64,000 nucleotides of DNA from assembly GCF_023347275.1 (NCBI RefSeq), contig NZ_CP094468.1, positions 1,612,001-1,676,000 on the forward strand. Direction: 5' to 3'. Under the pieces are notes generated by a model. It saw only the letters and a program-made list of their open reading frames with translations, did not search any database and was not told where the DNA came from. The stretch comes from Faecalibacterium sp. I3-3-89 (GTDB taxonomy: Bacteria; Bacillota; Clostridia; Oscillospirales; Ruminococcaceae). Made by a program: the position numbers and the translations under genes. Positions 51,907-64,000 of this stretch are shown here, in pieces (position 1 is the stretch's first letter; the number at the start of each line of letters is the position of its first letter).

Positions 51907-52892
51907 TTATTTCAGATATGCTTCCGCGCTCTTGCGGATCTCTGCTTCCACCTTCTCGGCGGCTTCCTTATTCTCTGCGCTGACGGAGATATAGGTCTTG
52001 AGCTTCGGCTCGGTGCCGGAGGGGCGCACCACGATAGAGCAGTTGTCTTCCAGCAGGAACTTGAGCACGTCGGACTTGGGCAGGCCGTCCAGACCCGGCG
52101 CGTAGTCCAGCAGCTTGACGACCTTCCTGCCGCCAAACTCCTTGATGCCGCCCCGGAATGCCTGCATGATGTCCTGCATCTTGGCAAAACCGGCGCTGCC
52201 GTCGAACTCATAGCTGTGCAGGGTGTTCAGGCAGTAGCCGTAGGTCTTGTACAGCTCCTCCAGCTTGTCCAACAGGCTGATGCCCTTGGTGGCATAGTAG
52301 CTGAACATCTCGCAGATCATATACGCACCGTCCACGCCATCCTTATCGCGGACGTAGGAGCCGGTCAGATAGCCATAGCTTTCCTCAAAGCCGAACACAT
52401 AGCTGTCTGCCTTTCCCTGCTGTTCCAACTTGCCGATCTGCTCCCCGATGAACTTGAAGCCGGTCAGCACGTTGATGGTGCGCAGGCCATAGTGGGTGGC
52501 GATCTGCTCGCCCATGTCCATGGTGACGATGGTCTTGACCATGACCGGGTCGGCGGGCATCTTACCGTGCTTGGCGCGCTGGCTGCAAACGTAGTCCAGC
52601 AGCAGCATACCCGTCTGGTTGCCGGTCAGCAGCTCGTACTCCCCTGCCTTGTTCTTGACGGCGATGCCCACACGGTCACAGTCGGGGTCAGTCGCCAGCA
52701 GCAGGTCGGCGTTGCACTTTTTGGCATACTCCATGCCCAGTGCCATGGCTTCCTTGATCTCCGGGTTGGGGTACGGGCAGGTCGGGAAGTTTCCGTCCGG
52801 CTGCTCCTGCTCCTTGACCACCGTGATGTTGGTGTAGCCCATCTCCTTCAGGGTGCGGGTCACAGGCTTCAGGCCAGTGCCGTTCAGCGGGC
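51907..52892 (-). pseudogene. pgcA: Phosphoglucomutase/phosphomannomutase, N-terminal half lost
   Basis: About 328 codons of phospho-sugar mutase remain, from SPLNGTGLKPVTRTLKEMGY to the C-terminus. The metal-binding loop LLATDPDCDRVG, the sugar-binding GFEESYGYL and the phosphate-binding VVRPSGTEPKLK are present. The N-terminal domain with the phosphorylated serine loop (TASHNP-type) is missing, so it cannot be active. Family members are about 560-580 aa. The frame continues upstream into unrelated sequence to 53058. The break marks the left edge of the mobile region. Confidence 0.85.
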
Positions 52893-53058
52893 TATTCACA
52901 GAATCACAGATTGCAAGGTCACAATACTTGACCATCATCTGCTCAGAAATCTTCCAATACTTCCGAATTGGTGCAGACCATTTAGCTCGCATCCACTCAT
53001 GTCCGGCCGATGTCAAGTCTTGGACAACATTTTTCACAAATAAATTTGAAAAAAGCAA
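52893..53058 (-). other. Foreign 55-codon extension fused to the mutase remnant
   Basis: The open frame upstream of the mutase reads NVVQDLTSAGHEWMRAKWSA, then PIRKYWKISEQMMVKYCDLAICDSVN. It is not part of the mutase family. It looks like the end of another gene captured at the junction; I cannot name it. Confidence 0.4.
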
Positions 53059-53066
53059 AAAAAAAT

Positions 53067-53120
53067 AAGCCCTACAAGGTTTTCAGTCAGTATCGAACCG
53101 ATCTGAGCCTTGTAGGGCTT
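53067..53120. repeat. Terminal hairpin of recombinase cassette 1
   Basis: AAGCCCTACAAGG (53067-53079) pairs perfectly with CCTTGTAGGGCTT (53108-53120). An A-run on the left gives a U-tract for minus-strand transcripts, so it can terminate the operon. A near copy lies at 61826-61880. Confidence 0.8.
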
Positions 53121-53147
53121 TACAGTTTACTCTATATGCTTTTTATC

Positions 53148-54143
53148 TTAGACCGCCTGCAGCGGGGTATTTTCCATCACTTTCTTAAATTCCTCTACTG
53201 TCATTCCAGCATCTTCCGCTGCTTCTTCAATCGTCACACGGCCTTTTCTTACCTGTTTAACCAGCATCCGCATCTCACCAATGTTGATGCCTTCTTCTCT
53301 GCCTTCGGCCTTTACGCCCTGACTAAGGTTGCACATAACAAGCACCTCCCTTTCCAGTTCTTCGTTCATTGCAACGCCAAATTCTTCTTCAAGAATTTTC
53401 TTTTTCTCAGTAGCTGCTCTGGAAGAAGAGAGCAACACATCCATAAATTTCACAATACCTGTATAGTTTTCCGTATCCGGTTCTCCCAGACAAATCGTTA
53501 CAACACTCATTAAATCGTAGTTTTCCGATTTTTCAACAGCGTTTCCAATCAACTGCTCTGGTCGGATAGAATAACGAATCAGAGTGTTTTGGAACTCCTT
53601 GGTTGGGTGTGTACAAACCCAGATAGAGTACACTTTTCGGATTTTCCCATACTCCGAGTTCGTGAATATCGGGCCATGCTGTGCGGAGATCATCCTGCTG
53701 CAATAATAGATTGCTCGCTTTGTCAACGGGTATCCCGGATTAAAAGCCGTCTGCGCTTCCACATTGATAATAAGACGTATCACATCTTTCCGTGCAGTAG
53801 AACCTTCTAACGCCGGTGCAATTGCATCGAACCGGACATCATAATTGACGGTTCCTTCCGTCAACGTAGAATCCTCATTATTGCTTCCGACAATTACGTC
53901 AGAAGTTTTTTGGGGTCTGTTTGTATCATCAACATGAACGCCAACCGTGCCCACTTCCGGCGTTCCTTCGATATACTTCTCTGCAATTTCGTCTACGGAA
54001 CAGGCACTGTACTCATTCACACAGTTCTTCATAATCTGTGCCAGAATCTGTTTGTTGGCAAGCAGCTTCTTGGCAGCCTTATCATAACTCGAATCATATT
54101 CCGTCTGCGTTATCGCATGAGCAAGCTGATTTTCCATCGGCAT
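53148..54143 (-). CDS. Rpn-family PD-(D/E)XK recombination-promoting nuclease
   Basis: 331 aa. The nuclease core shows YDVRFDAIAP followed by RLIINVEAQTAF, the Asp and Glu-x-Gln of the PD-(D/E)XK fold in Rpn proteins (often annotated as putative transposase). The C-terminal third is a charged helical region with MAEAGMT-like repeats (VRKGRVTIEEAAEDAGMTVEEF). The family cleaves DNA and is suspected in recombination and phage defence. It is the cargo position of the first recombinase cassette. AAGGAAGTG precedes the ATG. Confidence 0.85.
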   Translation of the reverse strand: MPMENQLAHAITQTEYDSSYDKAAKKLLANKQILAQIMKNCVNEYSACSVDEIAEKYIEGTPEVGTVGVHVDDTNRPQKTSDVIVGSNNEDSTLTEGTVNYDVRFDAIAPALEGSTARKDVIRLIINVEAQTAFNPGYPLTKRAIYYCSRMISAQHGPIFTNSEYGKIRKVYSIWVCTHPTKEFQNTLIRYSIRPEQLIGNAVEKSENYDLMSVVTICLGEPDTENYTGIVKFMDVLLSSSRAATEKKKILEEEFGVAMNEELEREVLVMCNLSQGVKAEGREEGINIGEMRMLVKQVRKGRVTIEEAAEDAGMTVEEFKKVMENTPLQAV

Positions 54144-54345: not shown

Positions 54346-54711
54346 CTAACATTCCCGTTCATCGTTTTCAAGTGAAATGATAACTGCGTTTTTCTCAGCT
54401 TCATATCTTCCTTTAAACTGATGATCCTTTCCTGCGGCTAGTCCATTTGCCTCCAGTAGCGCCTGAATGAACTGTATTCCGTTAATCATCATCCGGCACT
54501 GCCCATCGGTCAACAGCCTGTCTGGAACCTTAAATGACATGGGATGTTCAGCGGTGCACGGAGTAATCGCAATAGACTTCCGATCTTTCCTCTGCAAAAC
54601 ACAAATATAGGTCGGACTCCCAAGGACACGAATAACATCCTTTCCCACATTCATTCTTCGGCTTTCTGCCGGAATCGTCACCATCAGATTCATAATTCGT
54701 CCAGAACTCAT
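54346..54711 (-). CDS. Recombinase-associated accessory protein (121 aa)
   Basis: 121 aa, soluble. Residues about 17-117 (MNVGKDVIRVLGSPTYICVLQRKD to the ISLEND end) form one domain that matches in spacing a domain of the 272-aa neighbour and the recombinase C-terminus. A close copy is at 62716-63105. Its start overlaps the stop of the preceding gene (ATGA). No catalytic motif is visible; a DNA-binding or helper role is inferred from coupling to the recombinase. Confidence 0.7.
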   Translation of the reverse strand: MSSGRIMNLMVTIPAESRRMNVGKDVIRVLGSPTYICVLQRKDRKSIAITPCTAEHPMSFKVPDRLLTDGQCRMMINGIQFIQALLEANGLAAGKDHQFKGRYEAEKNAVIISLENDEREC

Positions 54712-55526
54712 GTCAGCATTCCTTTCTCAACAACCTCACTGCCCGGTCGTTGTACATTTTCAGGCTGTTCCGACAAATCTGGCAAAGGTATATTTTCAGA
54801 TTCTTCACATTGCGGTATCGGTACTGAAATAGTATCTGTTTTCTGTTCAGGCTCATCCAATACAGCAGAGCCCTGATACCCAATAAAATCCTCGAACAGA
54901 TTCATCTGATGACCAGAGATGTAATCATTATAAGATTTCCCGATCCGATCCTTATAGACATCTGGGAAGAACTTTATCTGTTTTTTCTTCATTTCGCCAG
55001 TAAGCGGGTCCGTATATTCCTGTGGCTTCGGTGTGAACATGATTGCTTCTTCCAAATCGAACAACATACAAAGGCCCTGATCAGAATTAGCCACCCGTCC
55101 AAGCACTTTATAGCGGCATTCTCGGTTCCAGTTCATGAGCTTGAAGATATTTTCCACAAATTCCAAAGAGGTAATATCCTTATTCACCCAGTTTGCGTCC
55201 TTCTGCCGTGCCCATTCAACAGACGCGCTGTCTTCTTCCGGACACATAATCAATGCAAGCCGTTTCTTGTTTGGATGCAAAATCGGAAGAACATACTTGA
55301 TTCCTTCAAAAAGCCGGATGCAGGCCATATTAAATTTCATAACGCCATATTTTATGCTCACTGCAGGTTTATTCAGCATGGAAAATTGGGTGCGCGGTGG
55401 AAGCTCATAGCCATCGAATTTTTCGTACTCCAGTTCTCTTTTATGTTCTTTTCGTATCTGCGTTAACTCACGAATCAAGGAGATTTCCCGAACGCTCAGT
55501 TCCTGTTCCCTGCTTTTTTCTTCCAT
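54708..55526 (-). CDS. Recombinase-associated accessory protein (272 aa)
   Basis: 272 aa. An N-terminal helix (about 8-38) is followed by the shared domain (about 61-164) with MKFNMACIRLFEG, LPILHPNKKRLALIMCP, NIFKLMNWNRECRYKVLGR and MLFDLEEA. A Pro/Glu/Ser-rich tail follows (about 220-272). A 274-aa near-copy lies at 63102-63926. Located 13 nt after the large recombinase gene. Family unknown to me; probably a helper of site-specific recombination. Confidence 0.7.
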   Translation of the reverse strand: MEEKSREQELSVREISLIRELTQIRKEHKRELEYEKFDGYELPPRTQFSMLNKPAVSIKYGVMKFNMACIRLFEGIKYVLPILHPNKKRLALIMCPEEDSASVEWARQKDANWVNKDITSLEFVENIFKLMNWNRECRYKVLGRVANSDQGLCMLFDLEEAIMFTPKPQEYTDPLTGEMKKKQIKFFPDVYKDRIGKSYNDYISGHQMNLFEDFIGYQGSAVLDEPEQKTDTISVPIPQCEESENIPLPDLSEQPENVQRPGSEVVEKGMLT

Positions 55527-55539
55527 TTCACAAATCCTC

Positions 55540-57390
55540 CTACATCGACATTAAAAGGTCATCCAGTTCACGTTGAACTTCATTTCTGCTTGGAATTGCA
55601 CCAATCATGGGATTTTCTACGACTTGGCCGGATTCCATCACATCACTGGCCGCAATGCTCTGAACCCACTTGCTCCGATACAGCCGACATTTCAGATTCA
55701 TCGAACGATCCTCAATCTGTTCATACTGATTTTTTCCAATCAAAATCCGGGACTCATCCAATTCAAAAATTAGGAACTTTGCATTTTCCTCTCCACGGCA
55801 GATACCACGACACTGGTAACGACAACTCCACTTCCAGTTCATTGCTTCAAATATCACCCCTGAAAATGCCCTGGATGAAAAGCTGCTGCAAATCTTATCC
55901 TTATTTTCCCAATGTATCGCTGTTGAAGCATCACGATTACTTTTTCGCAGGATTACGACTTGCAGAATCGGATGATAGAGCAGTTCCACATGCTCGCAGT
56001 CGTCCAAGCGGGTATGACACGCTTTGCTGAAACGGATTCCATTTTTTGAGATTGTTATGACCGGGCTACTTTGATTGATAAAGCAAGTGCCTGAAATCGT
56101 CAGATATTCCGATCGAAGGGGCTTTTCCAGCTTTGTTCCAGCCCTCATCTCTGCTATATCATTCAGTTTCGCCACCTCTTCCGGAAGATAGGCCCTCAGA
56201 CAAAGACTGTGAATACTATCAACACTGATGCCACTCCAGTTCGGATGGATGCCCACGAATCCTTTCAATGCTCCCTGCTGGATTACTACAATATCCTGCA
56301 CCCCGCACTTCTTTTTGCTGGATGCCACAAGATGTGCAGCCCGTGCAATTTCCGGTGAAACAATCGCTTCGTGATGTTCTGGAACGTAGGCAGAGCAGCG
56401 ATTTCCGTTATTCTTTGTGACCTTGCCCAACTTGTAGTCCACCACAATGCTCTTCCGAGCTTCCAGATCACCCCAGCGACGTTCGTTTTTCATAATGTTA
56501 GCCACCATCATGCCATTCCACTCTTGCCTGCCGCGCAGGGTGCTGCGCTTCTTCTGTGTCAGGATCATTGCAATCTGTTCGTAATCATAGCCCTGAATAA
56601 ATGCCAGAAAGATAAAACGTACCGTCTTTGCTTCTTCCGGCTCAATCACAAGCTGTCCATCCTTCGTATGCCGATACCCCATCAGGTCAGCCACCGGGTA
56701 CTGACCTGTCATAATACGCTGGTCATACGAAAGGATCATGCGGCGACTCTTATTGCCCGATTCCCAGTCTGCCAAAAGAGCCTGAATGTCAAGACTGTAT
56801 TGACTGCTTGGATTCAGCGTGTAGATATTCTCTGTTTCAAAGTACACACCGATGGGATGTGCAGGATGCATGGTTTTCAAAGCTGCGATCTGTGTCATGC
56901 AATCCGAAAAGTTCCGGGCAAAACGCGAAATGCTGGCACAGATAATCAAATCCATTTTCTGGTCTTTGGCATCTCGCATCATTCGCTTAAATGCATCTCG
57001 TTTCCGCAGTGAAGTACCCGATTTTCCCTCGTCACTGTAAATATCCTGCAGATTCCAGTTTTCCGTTTCTGCAATCTTTTTGGTGTAGTATAGAGTTTGA
57101 TTTTCAATAGAGGAAATCTGTTCTTCGCTAGATGTGCTGACACGAGCATAAACGGCCACACGTTTTAGGTCACTGTCATAAATTGATGGGGTCGGCTTTG
57201 CAGGGCGGAAATAATCTTTTGCAGATTTCTGGCCCTGTTCAGTCTGCTTATGGATTCTGTCGCGGATTTCGGCTTTTCTCTTTTCAGCTTCCAAATGCCT
57301 GCTTTTCCAATCCATTCCATTGGACACAACTTCGATATTTTCTATTGAAATATGTTCTACATTTTTTGAATCATACTGTCCTTCATTCAT
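55540..57390 (-). CDS. Large serine recombinase with C-terminal accessory domain
   Basis: 616 aa. An N-terminal extension (1-75) precedes the resolvase domain: VAVYARVST with nucleophile S85, then SDEGKSGTS and ISRFARN (about 153-160). A recombinase DNA-binding domain follows (about 235-360), with a GALKGFVGIHPNWSG segment where many relatives have a Cys4 zinc ribbon. The last 165 residues carry the domain shared with the two accessory proteins (about 451-552). It should catalyse element excision and integration. Its ATG overlaps the previous stop; a partial copy of its C-terminus lies at 63941-64000. Confidence 0.9.
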   Translation of the reverse strand: MNEGQYDSKNVEHISIENIEVVSNGMDWKSRHLEAEKRKAEIRDRIHKQTEQGQKSAKDYFRPAKPTPSIYDSDLKRVAVYARVSTSSEEQISSIENQTLYYTKKIAETENWNLQDIYSDEGKSGTSLRKRDAFKRMMRDAKDQKMDLIICASISRFARNFSDCMTQIAALKTMHPAHPIGVYFETENIYTLNPSSQYSLDIQALLADWESGNKSRRMILSYDQRIMTGQYPVADLMGYRHTKDGQLVIEPEEAKTVRFIFLAFIQGYDYEQIAMILTQKKRSTLRGRQEWNGMMVANIMKNERRWGDLEARKSIVVDYKLGKVTKNNGNRCSAYVPEHHEAIVSPEIARAAHLVASSKKKCGVQDIVVIQQGALKGFVGIHPNWSGISVDSIHSLCLRAYLPEEVAKLNDIAEMRAGTKLEKPLRSEYLTISGTCFINQSSPVITISKNGIRFSKACHTRLDDCEHVELLYHPILQVVILRKSNRDASTAIHWENKDKICSSFSSRAFSGVIFEAMNWKWSCRYQCRGICRGEENAKFLIFELDESRILIGKNQYEQIEDRSMNLKCRLYRSKWVQSIAASDVMESGQVVENPMIGAIPSRNEVQRELDDLLMSM

Positions 57391-57878
57391 TTTCCATCTG
57401 CCTTTTCCATTTCATGTTCTAGTCGTGCTTTCCATGCAAGATATTCTTTCTTACGGATTGATGTGTATTTTTCGGCTAATTCTTTCAGACTTTGCCGTTG
57501 GTTATCAACATCAAGAATGGTGTCGATTCTCTGGTCATCATCATCCGTAACAATGTCCACTCGCATCGGTATGTCAAACAGATATTTCAACAGGAAACAG
57601 AAATCACAGGTATTCGCCGCAAGGTAGGCTCTTGTTTGCGAGAAAATCAGATTAACTATTCCCTTTTTACAGTCCTGAAGCAGATGTACCATTTCCGGGC
57701 GTTTGTAAATTTCCTTATTCCCTGTGATGTCAATATAGACACCAACCAGCCTTTTATCCACATCATCTCTGAACCTTTCAGCGTAATAGGAACTATGATA
57801 GGCTACTGCTACATCCTTGGAGCGTTCCCACAGTTTTGCAAGTTTCACATAGCCGCCTACTTTATACTTGCGGTCCAT
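57387..57878 (-). CDS. Resolvase-fold protein lacking the catalytic serine
   Basis: 163 aa. The pattern VYIDITGNKEIYKRPEMVHLLQDCKKGIVNLIFSQTRAYLAANTCDF follows a serine-recombinase catalytic domain (compare YxDEGxSG..RPxFxxML.DCK.GxIDLIxxxSxSRFARN), but the nucleophile region reads AVAYHSSYYAERF and the SRFARN arginines are changed. The C-terminal helix (QRQSLKELAEKYTSIRKKEYLAWKARLEHEME) could mediate pairing. It is probably an inactive partner subunit. It overlaps both neighbours. Confidence 0.6.
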   Translation of the reverse strand: MDRKYKVGGYVKLAKLWERSKDVAVAYHSSYYAERFRDDVDKRLVGVYIDITGNKEIYKRPEMVHLLQDCKKGIVNLIFSQTRAYLAANTCDFCFLLKYLFDIPMRVDIVTDDDDQRIDTILDVDNQRQSLKELAEKYTSIRKKEYLAWKARLEHEMEKADGK

Positions 57879-58899
57879 TCATAACACCTTCTTCCGGCTG
57901 AACACTCCAATACCATTTTCGCTTTTTCTGGTAGCAGTGAATTCCCATTTCTGTTTTTACCATTCGTGCCACTCGTTTGCTGATGCCCTCATTGTCCAAA
58001 CGGCAATATATTTCATTTGCGCTCATATCGCCTTTTTCAAGGAAATGCTTGATCCAATAGACGGCTTTCTGCTGCTCAGAATCAAATCTCAGTTCTATAT
58101 CCTGCTGCTGTTTTTCAATAAGTTGCGGCCTGCATTCCATCCATTGAAAGCCTTTTTCGGCAGAAATGGAAAAGTGAATGTCCTCAGCCGTAGGCGCAAG
58201 ACTGTTTTTGATTTGATGTACAATTCTTATATCAGGATTCTCGGTATCCCGTTCCACCTGCAGGACACTTCGTGCTGCTGCCACAACATCAATGCTTCCC
58301 AAACTGCGGTACAACCCTTTGGAACCTTCTTTTTTATTAAGGTGGCCAATCAGAACGATGGCGCAGTCGTAGCCAGCAGCCCACATTCCAAGACGGCGCA
58401 TGAGTTTCCGTGCCCTGCCTGCAATCTGCAAATCCGAATCGCTACCAAGATAAGCCTGAATCGGGTCGATCACAACCAATCGCGGTCGAAATTCAATGAT
58501 TGCCTGACGGATCCCCAAGGTTGTACCATTATAATTGCTGCTGTCATAGTTGTCATTGATGGAGATGAGCCTGACACCCAGTAGTGGAAAAATCTGCTCC
58601 ATGTATTCGCCCACACCAATGTAATCGCGTCCAAAACGAGACAGGTCTTTTACGATAATGGTATCAATCTCGCCACTGCGCACACCATCCATCATTTTCT
58701 GAAAGCCCGGTCTGTCGAAATTGCTGCCTGTGTAACCATCATCCACAAAATCCATCACAGGCAGATTTTGCAGACTCTCTTTGTGGGAAATATACCGCTG
58801 GATCAGTTCTTTCTGGTTTTCGATGCTGTTGCTCTTGTCTTTTCCATCTTTACCCAAATCACCGTCTGCCCTTGAAATGCGCTGATACGCTGCAATCAT
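57862..58899 (-). CDS. Chimeric protein: serine-recombinase N-domain fused to RepA-like ATPase C-part
   Basis: 345 aa. Residues 1-128 are an intact resolvase domain (AAYQRIS with S9, DDGYTGSNFDRPGF, VKDLSRFGRD). From about 129 the sequence is the back half of an AAA_25/RepA-type RecA-fold ATPase: FRPRLVVIDPIQAYLG (Walker B), IVLIGHLNKKEGSKGLYRSLGS and a C-terminal winged-helix-like tail. Walker A and the recombinase DNA-binding domains are missing. The junction is near 58515. It probably arose by deletion between two element genes; function is doubtful. Confidence 0.8.
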   Translation of the reverse strand: MIAAYQRISRADGDLGKDGKDKSNSIENQKELIQRYISHKESLQNLPVMDFVDDGYTGSNFDRPGFQKMMDGVRSGEIDTIIVKDLSRFGRDYIGVGEYMEQIFPLLGVRLISINDNYDSSNYNGTTLGIRQAIIEFRPRLVVIDPIQAYLGSDSDLQIAGRARKLMRRLGMWAAGYDCAIVLIGHLNKKEGSKGLYRSLGSIDVVAAARSVLQVERDTENPDIRIVHQIKNSLAPTAEDIHFSISAEKGFQWMECRPQLIEKQQQDIELRFDSEQQKAVYWIKHFLEKGDMSANEIYCRLDNEGISKRVARMVKTEMGIHCYQKKRKWYWSVQPEEGVMNGPQV

Positions 58900-61442: not shown

Positions 61443-61825
61443 TTTTTATTCTTGTCCTAGGCTTATACACAATCCCAGCAGTTTTTTTCCTTAAATTGTC
61501 ATGCTCGTCTTTCACTATTCACCTTTCCCACTTCATAGCACAACAACAAGCCTGTATACAGATTGCAGCAACAATCTATACGCAGGCTTGTCCTCGTACC
61601 TCCTTATTTTGTTTTCTGCTCTATCAGCTTTCGCTGTGGTGGGTTAAGTATAGAGCGCAACCAGAAGCCATTAACTCCTGAAAACACGCTGGCCGTAACG
61701 CACCATGACAAGCAGAAACAAGTTGAGGTGAAAAGGTCAAGCCGCGCAAACCCGCATGAAATCAGGCTTTTCTCTGGTTGCCCATATGCGGTTGTCAAGT
61801 AAGGAACAAAAATTTTTGTAAAAAA
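61443..61825. other. Intergenic stretch, no gene recognised
   Basis: AT-rich. Short open frames lack ribosome-binding sites. I see nothing functional up to the hairpin at 61826. Confidence 0.4.
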
Positions 61826-61880
61826 AAGCCCTACAAGGCTTTCAATCGGTTCTTACACCAATTTGAGCCTTGTAGGGCTT
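61826..61880. repeat. Terminal hairpin of recombinase cassette 2
   Basis: AAGCCCTACAAGGCT (61826-61840) pairs perfectly with AGCCTTGTAGGGCTT (61866-61880). The loop is also similar to the copy at 53067-53120. Confidence 0.8.
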
Positions 61881-62715: not shown

Positions 62716-63105
62716 TCAAGTTGTACACTTTTGAGGCGAGAGGGCACTTTGTTCATCTTTTTCAAGCGAAATGATAACTGCATTTTTCTCGGCATCATAC
62801 CGTCCTTTAAACTGATGGTCTTTTCCTGCTGCCAGACCATTTGCTTCCAGCAACACCTGAATGAACTGTATTCCGTTAATCATCATCCGACACTGCCCAT
62901 CGGTCAGCAGCCTGTCCGGAACCTTAAAGGACATGGGATGCTCCGCAGCACATGGCGTGATTGCAATAGACTTCCGATCTTTCCTCTGCAAAACGCAGAT
63001 ATAGGCCGGACTTCCAAGAATACGGATAACATCTTTCCCAACATTCATTCTCCGGCTTTCCGCCGGAATTGTCACTCGCAGGTTCATAACTCGTCCAGAA
63101 TTCAT
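62716..63105 (-). CDS. Recombinase-associated accessory protein (129 aa), second copy
   Basis: Near-identical to 54346-54711 over the first 115 residues, then a different tail (EQSALSPQKCTT). Overlaps the preceding gene by the same ATGA. Confidence 0.7.
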   Translation of the reverse strand: MNSGRVMNLRVTIPAESRRMNVGKDVIRILGSPAYICVLQRKDRKSIAITPCAAEHPMSFKVPDRLLTDGQCRMMINGIQFIQVLLEANGLAAGKDHQFKGRYDAEKNAVIISLEKDEQSALSPQKCTT

Positions 63106-63926
63106 GTCGGCATTCCTCTCCCGTCAGACTCATAACTCGATTGCTGCATATTCACAGATTGTTCCGGCAAATGGGGCAGCGCTGTATTTTCCGGTGGTTC
63201 GCTTTTCTGTCTCATTGGTGGCTTCGGCACTGTATTCTCTTCCTGCACAGGCTCATCCAATACCGCAGAGTCCTGATACTCAATGAAGTCTTCAAACATG
63301 TTCATCTGGTGGTCTGCAATATAGTCATTATAAGATTTTCCGATACGGTTCTTATAGGCATCCGGGAAGAATTTCATCTGCTTTTTCTTCATTTCACCAG
63401 TAAGCGGATCCGTATATTCCTGTGGCTTCGGGGTGAACATGATTGCTTCTTCCAAATCGAACAACATACAAAGGCCATGATCCGAGTTCGCTACTCGTCC
63501 GAGTATCTTATAGCGGCATTCTCGGTTCCAACTCATGATTTTGAAGATATTTTCCACAAATTCCAAAGAGGTAATATCCTTATTCACCCAGTTTTCGTCC
63601 TTCTGTCTTGCCCATTCAACAGATGCACTGTCCTCTTCCGGGCACATAATCAGCGCAAGCCGCTTCTTGTTTGGATGCAGAATTGGAAGAACATACTTAA
63701 TTCCTTCAAAAAGCCGGATACAGGCCATATTGAATTTCATAACGCCATATTTTATGCTCACTGCAGGTTTATTCAGCATGGAAAACTGGGTGCGCGGCGG
63801 AAGTTCATAGCCATCGAACTTTTCGTACTCCAGTTCTCTTTTATGTTCTTTCCGTATCTGTGCAAGTTCACGAATCAAGGAGATTTCCCGAACGCTCAGT
63901 TCCTGCGCCCTGCTTTTTTCTTCCAT
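63102..63926 (-). CDS. Recombinase-associated accessory protein (274 aa), second copy
   Basis: Nearly identical to 54708-55526 for about 210 residues (same start EEKSRAQELSVREISLIREL and the same shared domain). The Pro/Glu-rich C-terminal tail is diverged. The intergenic gap to the upstream recombinase is conserved too. Confidence 0.7.
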   Translation of the reverse strand: MEEKSRAQELSVREISLIRELAQIRKEHKRELEYEKFDGYELPPRTQFSMLNKPAVSIKYGVMKFNMACIRLFEGIKYVLPILHPNKKRLALIMCPEEDSASVEWARQKDENWVNKDITSLEFVENIFKIMSWNRECRYKILGRVANSDHGLCMLFDLEEAIMFTPKPQEYTDPLTGEMKKKQMKFFPDAYKNRIGKSYNDYIADHQMNMFEDFIEYQDSAVLDEPVQEENTVPKPPMRQKSEPPENTALPHLPEQSVNMQQSSYESDGRGMPT

Positions 63927-63940
63927 TCTATAAGTTCCTC

Positions 63941-64000
63941 CTACATCGACATCAAAAGATCATCCAGTTCACGTTGAACTTCATTTCTGCTTGGAATTGC
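63941..64000 (-). CDS. Large serine recombinase, C-terminus of a second copy (runs off window)
   Basis: The last 19 codons read AIPSRNEVQRELDDLLMSM and stop, identical to the end of the 616-aa recombinase at 55540. The gene extends beyond the window. Confidence 0.85.
   Translation of the reverse strand, partial: AIPSRNEVQRELDDLLMSM

Follow-up and report, generated by a model that had tools for sequence, protein, structure and literature searches.

A large serine recombinase encoded beside small proteins that carry its C-terminal domain

Do a site-specific recombinase and the small proteins encoded behind it share a domain, and might they work as one machine? The question is raised by a stretch of 64,000 nucleotides from Faecalibacterium sp. 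I3-3-89 (contig NZ_CP094468.1, positions 1,612,001 to 1,676,000; here called the window), in which the reverse strand encodes a 616 amino acid (aa) large serine recombinase (LSR; P0001, 55540..57390), a 272-aa protein (P0002, 54708..55526) and a 121-aa protein (P0003, 54346..54711). An earlier note on this DNA, whose coordinates and lengths for the three proteins are correct, proposed that a recombinase domain had been copied into co-translated, free-standing helpers, forming a multi-part complex that had not been described. We find a domain of ∼100–130 aa, named D here, at the C-terminus of the recombinase and in both small proteins; the family libraries used contain no useful entry for it. 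The same set of genes, often with a catalytically dead partner, turns up in gut phages and mobile elements, pointing to a recombination machine of several parts that has gone unrecognised. The usual description of a serine integrase is of a single protein whose reaction is reversed by a small unrelated factor; a widespread LSR of the kind that carries D (D-LSR) would allow the control of direction and of site choice to be tested in a natural system.

Domain D in three proteins

The recombinase and the 272-aa protein match each other directly. BLASTP aligned P0001 residues 405–555 with P0002 residues 14–169 (E=2e-11, 50.4 bits, 36/160 identical), and the common region begins earlier than had been quoted, at about residue 427 of P0001 and residue 38 of P0002. 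Based on BLASTP and profiles, D occupies about residues 427–555 of P0001 (core 451–552; 55726..56112, reverse strand), and on the same evidence together with a structural model about residues 38–169 of P0002 (55020..55415, reverse strand). P0003 lacks a pairwise BLASTP match (best E 3.8 against P0002 and 0.32 against P0001), and the motifs F..AC.R and IF..MNW..CRY, which the earlier note read as one pattern in all three proteins, occur in P0001 and P0002, while P0003 does not reproduce them letter for letter. Despite this, profiles and a matching predicted topology place P0003 in the family, with a D core at about residues 10–117.

Profiles and single sequences were compared against a set of 1204 open reading frames (ORFs). 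A profile built from eight P0003-type proteins, P0003 included, matched P0002 residues 68–163 (E 9e-9) and P0001 residues 462–549 (E 6e-6), and its remaining matches at E≤1 appear to belong to the D family too. The reverse profile, built from 21 LSR-type and P0002-type sequences, reached P0003 weakly (E 0.0024, residues 17–62), while one intermediate, L063_1255, was matched by all three single sequences (E 1.7e-9, 3.9e-8 and 3.4e-3). Profile–profile comparison with hhalign, using viral sequences chosen with a combined D profile (45 of the 61 non-redundant P0003-type sequences were used), gave 99.0% for LSR D against the P0003 type and 98.8% for the P0002 type against the P0003 type, well above the maxima of 3.9% and 0.6%, respectively, among 30 column-shuffled controls per comparison. 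D is thereby confirmed as one domain in P0001, P0002 and P0003. Comparison of D half against half was null for an internal duplication, and a P0003 match to a 1182-aa ORF in L067 (E 5e-4) disappeared with both profiles and is attributed to chance.

Structure predictions covered the free-standing D proteins, P0002 and P0003. The AlphaFold models had a predicted local distance difference test (pLDDT) score >90 over most of the domain for P0002 and a mean of 86 for P0003. Rather than differing in fold, the two share one order of secondary-structure elements in the domain, namely two strands, a helix, four strands, a second helix and two closing strands. The top structural match of both was MraZ, with 90–99 residues aligned. 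No MraZ or AbrB sequence match was obtained at E 0.01 among 47 members of the 121-aa type and 42 of the 272-aa type, and homology to MraZ by sequence was rejected (hhalign <1%). A sliding-clamp fold was likewise set aside: it appeared as a low-probability Foldseek entry and was not among the rows of a second structure comparison.

Known families account for little of this region. P0001 has no Pfam match beyond residue 352; P0002 and P0003 matched Pfam and NCBIfam entries no better than chance (best E 0.029, 0.093 and 0.14) and had no PHROG match. Relatives of the 121-aa type had a Pfam match at E 0.01 in 0/47 cases, and 2/42 of the 272-aa type had weak DUF6128 matches (best E 0.0012). PADLOC assigned 0 families to seven proteins, with no match to a known anti-phage defence system. 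No description of such a recombinase/D-protein module was found in the accessible portions of the literature searched, and the words 'integrase', 'recombinase' and 'invertase' are absent from the accessible main text of PMC9226167.

The recombinase and a conserved gene set

Canonical LSRs combine PF00239, PF07508 and a zinc ribbon, PF13408. P0001 resembles them in its catalytic domain (Resolvase, residues 78–224), its Recombinase domain (residues 251–352) and its four catalytic residues. PF00239 and PF07508 were each found in 26/26 scanned D-LSRs, and the catalytic R, S, R and R are kept in 72/72 (P0001 and 71 complete viral sequences, near-copies included). The zinc ribbon, in contrast, was matched in 0/26 scanned D-LSRs at E 0.01, and the D-LSR is therefore treated as a variant rather than a member of the canonical group; PF13408 is present in two canonical LSRs from a phage that carries the module. 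D-LSRs also differ from canonical LSRs in having D itself, in the D paralogues encoded with them and, in many cases, in a dead resolvase-like partner. The ribbon is not universal among LSRs: in the portion of PMC4701971 available, 10/42 streptococcal LSRs are without PF13408. The N-terminal half of P0001 had CcrB as its best NCBIfam match, yet this match is confined to residues 75–302, and the scores for CcrB, CcrC and CcrA (90.8, 69.0 and 54.5 bits) lie far under the equivalog cutoffs of 900, 900 and 700 bits.

Gene packing is tight: P0002 and P0003 overlap by 4 bp, a 13-bp gap separates P0001 from P0002, and an AGGAGG ribosome-binding site for P0002, as read from the sequence, overlaps the P0001 stop codon (55536..55541, reverse strand). 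Co-translation of the three proteins, as had been proposed, is plausible on these features.

Gene order was tallied in 80 viral loci and in an equal number of named genome loci; the 272-aa type was the main bait, and near-copies were retained (the best 80 of 99 viral and the best 80 of 125 genome relatives). Where the available stretch left room, a D-LSR lay upstream of the 272-aa type in 70/70 viral and 68/70 genome loci, and a small D protein lay downstream in 75/76 and 75/78. An order set of 17 loci recruited by P0002 or P0003, 11 of them with a P0002-type gene, gave 9/10 and 11/11, respectively. As exceptions, small D proteins occurred without a D-LSR in the available stretch at L063, L066, L175 and L176, and at L064 they stood next to an LSR that has no D.

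Two features go beyond the earlier note. The dead resolvase-like gene P0004 (163 aa; 57387..57878, reverse strand) overlaps the recombinase start by 4 bp, and in alignment its catalytic Ser and Arg positions are replaced. Resolvase-like genes of about 160–250 aa lie just upstream of the D-LSR in 16/67 viral, 41/66 genome and 4/9 order-set loci with room, and the catalytic serine is absent from 24/24 aligned proteins, P0004 included. P0004 has a weak Pfam match (E 0.086), while two scanned relatives exceed the Resolvase cutoff. The second feature is an extra free D protein, about 150 aa long, which some loci encode between the 272-aa and 121-aa types; in G189 an LSR with D is followed by three free D proteins.

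An unrooted tree of 87 D domains, from 28 of the 80 viral loci plus the window, required one label change each for the LSR, 121-aa and 150-aa types (support 97/86, 100/99 and 100/99); the 272-aa type needs two, one remaining possible. Distances of three roles correlate over 41 loci (r 0.88, 0.84 and 0.84), with 0/2000 permutations as high. The D roles are old, and the gene set travels together. A common domain is what stands of the proposed copying from the recombinase, but not the direction, the roles being separate old groups in the unrooted tree.

Among 295 genomes of the same order, the 272-aa protein was matched in 18 and the 121-aa protein in 8; wider samples gave carriers of the type in 10/391 genomes of the class and 4/398 of the phylum (the window's genome is included throughout). 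Matches were also found in 19/50,697 phage records and 1/72,556 plasmid records (Subdoligranulum variabile). Genome matches comprised a complete chromosome titled Deltaproteobacteria bacterium Smac51, Anaeroplasma bactoclasticum and many Clostridia, a considerable share of which are metagenome-assembled genomes. Two gut phage records labelled Ca. Heliusvirales annotate the module genes as hypothetical proteins, for which such a machine would offer a likely role.

A proposed multi-subunit recombinase and competing explanations

We favour, at a probability of roughly 0.55, a multi-subunit LSR in which D stands in the zinc ribbon's place and the free D proteins shape the synapse. This reading builds on the homology, the gene order, the intact versus lost catalytic residues, the lack of a zinc ribbon match and an apparent element end described below. 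The operon genes would encode subunits of one site-specific recombination machine on phages and integrative elements, with the D-LSR cutting and rejoining DNA via the usual serine mechanism. D, predicted to be a two-helix, eight-strand module whose nearest solved structure is the DNA-binding MraZ, would replace the ribbon and may bind DNA itself. The free D proteins would most likely sit beside or between the recombinase D domains on the attachment sites, choosing which sites pair and in which direction, and the dead resolvase-like protein, where present, would probably be a non-cutting partner of the catalytic domain. As for the undescribed complex first proposed, the conserved unit is real and is absent from the family libraries and papers searched; the physical assembly of the D-operon proteins we infer from gene order, correlated role distances and the common fold. 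A stronger form seems doubtful to us, namely an obligately heteromeric LSR whose catalysis, recognition and direction are split over an active D-LSR, a dead resolvase-like protein and two or three free D proteins, with exchange of D proteins switching between integration and excision.

Other roles for the operon were weighed against the multi-subunit LSR. It could be a resolution or partition module for a circular form of the element, resolving multimers with the help of ATPase or ParB-like proteins and leaving integration to canonical LSRs. A DUF6551/ParB-like protein after the operon in one carrier phage, the AAA_25 match of an ORF beside the window's first operon copy (copy A), an ATPase-like ORF before the second (copy B) and LSR triplets or pairs close by in many loci would fit such a module, yet we consider it unlikely given the window operon's position near an apparent element end and the 4/7 carriers, on partial contigs, with neither another resolvase match (bar one pseudo-resolvase) nor a tyrosine integrase. 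Resolvase matches were sought in 11 carriers, 10 chosen for having no canonical LSR in the available stretch (L251 had one); none other was found on the D-LSR contig in 6/11 (G708, G710, G711, G712, G713 and G714, bar the pseudo-resolvase in G708), and further matches were found in 5/11 (G705, G706, G707, G709 and G715). A tyrosine integrase search of seven carriers found none on the D-LSR contig in G708, G710, G711 and G712; in the Smac51 chromosome (G713) the nearest lay at about 150 kb, in G706 at about 75 kb and in G714 at about 10 kb. The contigs are mostly partial, so a more distant integrase may exist. That P0002 and P0003 are instead transcription regulators, autorepressors arisen by domain reuse with no direct role in recombination, is rather improbable: their nearest fold is that of the transcription factor MraZ, and two helix-turn-helix regulators adjoin the operon in an examined phage, but the recombinase itself carries D without a zinc ribbon match and free D paralogues stand beside a D-LSR in nearly all loci with room.

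The neighbouring recombinases bear on a last alternative, very improbable in our estimation, in which a canonical LSR triplet or pair is the integrase and the D operon an auxiliary set, e.g. of directionality factors. In L055 (8110-15828) a six-gene string has three LSR genes leading directly, with short overlaps, into a D-LSR and two D genes. Serine integrase triplets of streptococcal integrative and conjugative elements give 2–8 bp repeats, according to the part of PMC4701971 available; in the window, the core appears to be 2 bp long. No canonical LSR was present, however, in 4/24 viral and 25/47 genome loci spanning at least 14 kb, within limited flanks. The streptococcal modules are similar in having several LSRs each and very short core repeats, but the available part of PMC4701971 mentions neither D proteins nor a dead partner, whereas the modules described here pair a D-LSR with D paralogues, and canonical LSRs are close to some of them and not to others. 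Near copy B, beyond the window end, three LSR genes do stand side by side and point the same way, as in the streptococcal triplets (L050 8067-9698, 10084-11661 and 11678-13351, all on the reverse strand).

Apparent element ends, the second operon copy and neighbouring genes

The D operon is close to what looks like the end of an integrated element, at 53003..53006, where sequence comparison places ...GACATCGGCC directly against GGACATGAGTGG, part of a glycosyltransferase gene. A 112-bp remnant of that gene (52893..53004, reverse strand) runs on, at its far end, into a phosphomannomutase-like gene, making the ORF at 51907-53058 (reverse strand) a chimera of element end, 112 bp of glycosyltransferase and most of the phosphomannomutase-like gene. 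The latter is full length (568 aa) in G229, where the glycosyltransferase gene is also whole; in the window's genome the glycosyltransferase gene is split into pieces about 77 kb apart, with its first 153 residues encoded at G000:C1:1742377-1742835 and a short stretch from further along the gene at 1664891-1665016. The far junction reads ...CCAGATGG followed by GGAGTG, and that in the window, at 53004/53005, reads ...GACATCGGCC followed by GGACATGAG. Since the GG of the intact gene is kept in both pieces, the core is probably the 2-bp GG. The far junction is less certain as an element end, and the 77 kb is not one intact element, because polysaccharide genes adjoin the junction and fill part of the stretch. 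Both D operons and the LSR triplet (G000 1682067-1687351) lie inside it, and the triplet, rather than the D operon, may be doing the integrating.

The same junction follows the D operon of L068 (an IMG/VR contig); the end motif was not found downstream of the operon in L069-L074 or L150 within the available stretch. A similar end occurs in another glycosyltransferase gene (G000 1697906), inside a run of G. An att site was also sought for an element without a nearby canonical LSR (G122/G082), with no clean ends found: the two have a 3.9-kb piece in common and a mixed hotspot beside a tRNA-like sequence (by eye), and the D operon lies outside the common piece, G082 having no D match. A conserved terminator-like hairpin, GCCCTACAAGG...CCTTGTAGGGC, occurs at 53045-53123, 61820-61880 and L177:3932-4010, two of the three being near apparent element ends. 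A 331-aa ORF (53148-54143, reverse strand) separates the D operon from the element end.

The whole operon is duplicated (54357-58512 and 62751 onwards), with 85.6% identity over 4163 bp. Copy B, also on the reverse strand, comprises a 274-aa version of the 272-aa protein (63102..63926, 84% identical), a 129-aa version of the 121-aa protein (62716..63105, 92% identical) and the 3' end of a D-LSR (63941..64000) that continues past the window edge (G000:C1:1675944-1677767, 88% identical). The DNA between the two copies contains fragments of further serine recombinases. In copy A, a fused ORF (57862..58899, reverse strand), whose N-terminus is that of a resolvase and whose C-terminus matches the AAA_25 ATPase family in Pfam, overlaps the P0004 start; copy B has in its place a separate 329-aa ORF, ATPase-like by eye (L050 4236-5225). 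Many metagenome protein matches are fusions of D proteins to glycosyltransferase, topoisomerase or other pieces, and, similar to the fusion at 57862-58899, they are either real rearrangements or artefacts of assembly or amplification. In the phage L149 (8988-10885), two genes come after the D operon, one for a 316-aa protein that matched nothing and one for the DUF6551/ParB-like protein; pairs resembling these by eye follow the operon in L202, L211, L241 and L237.
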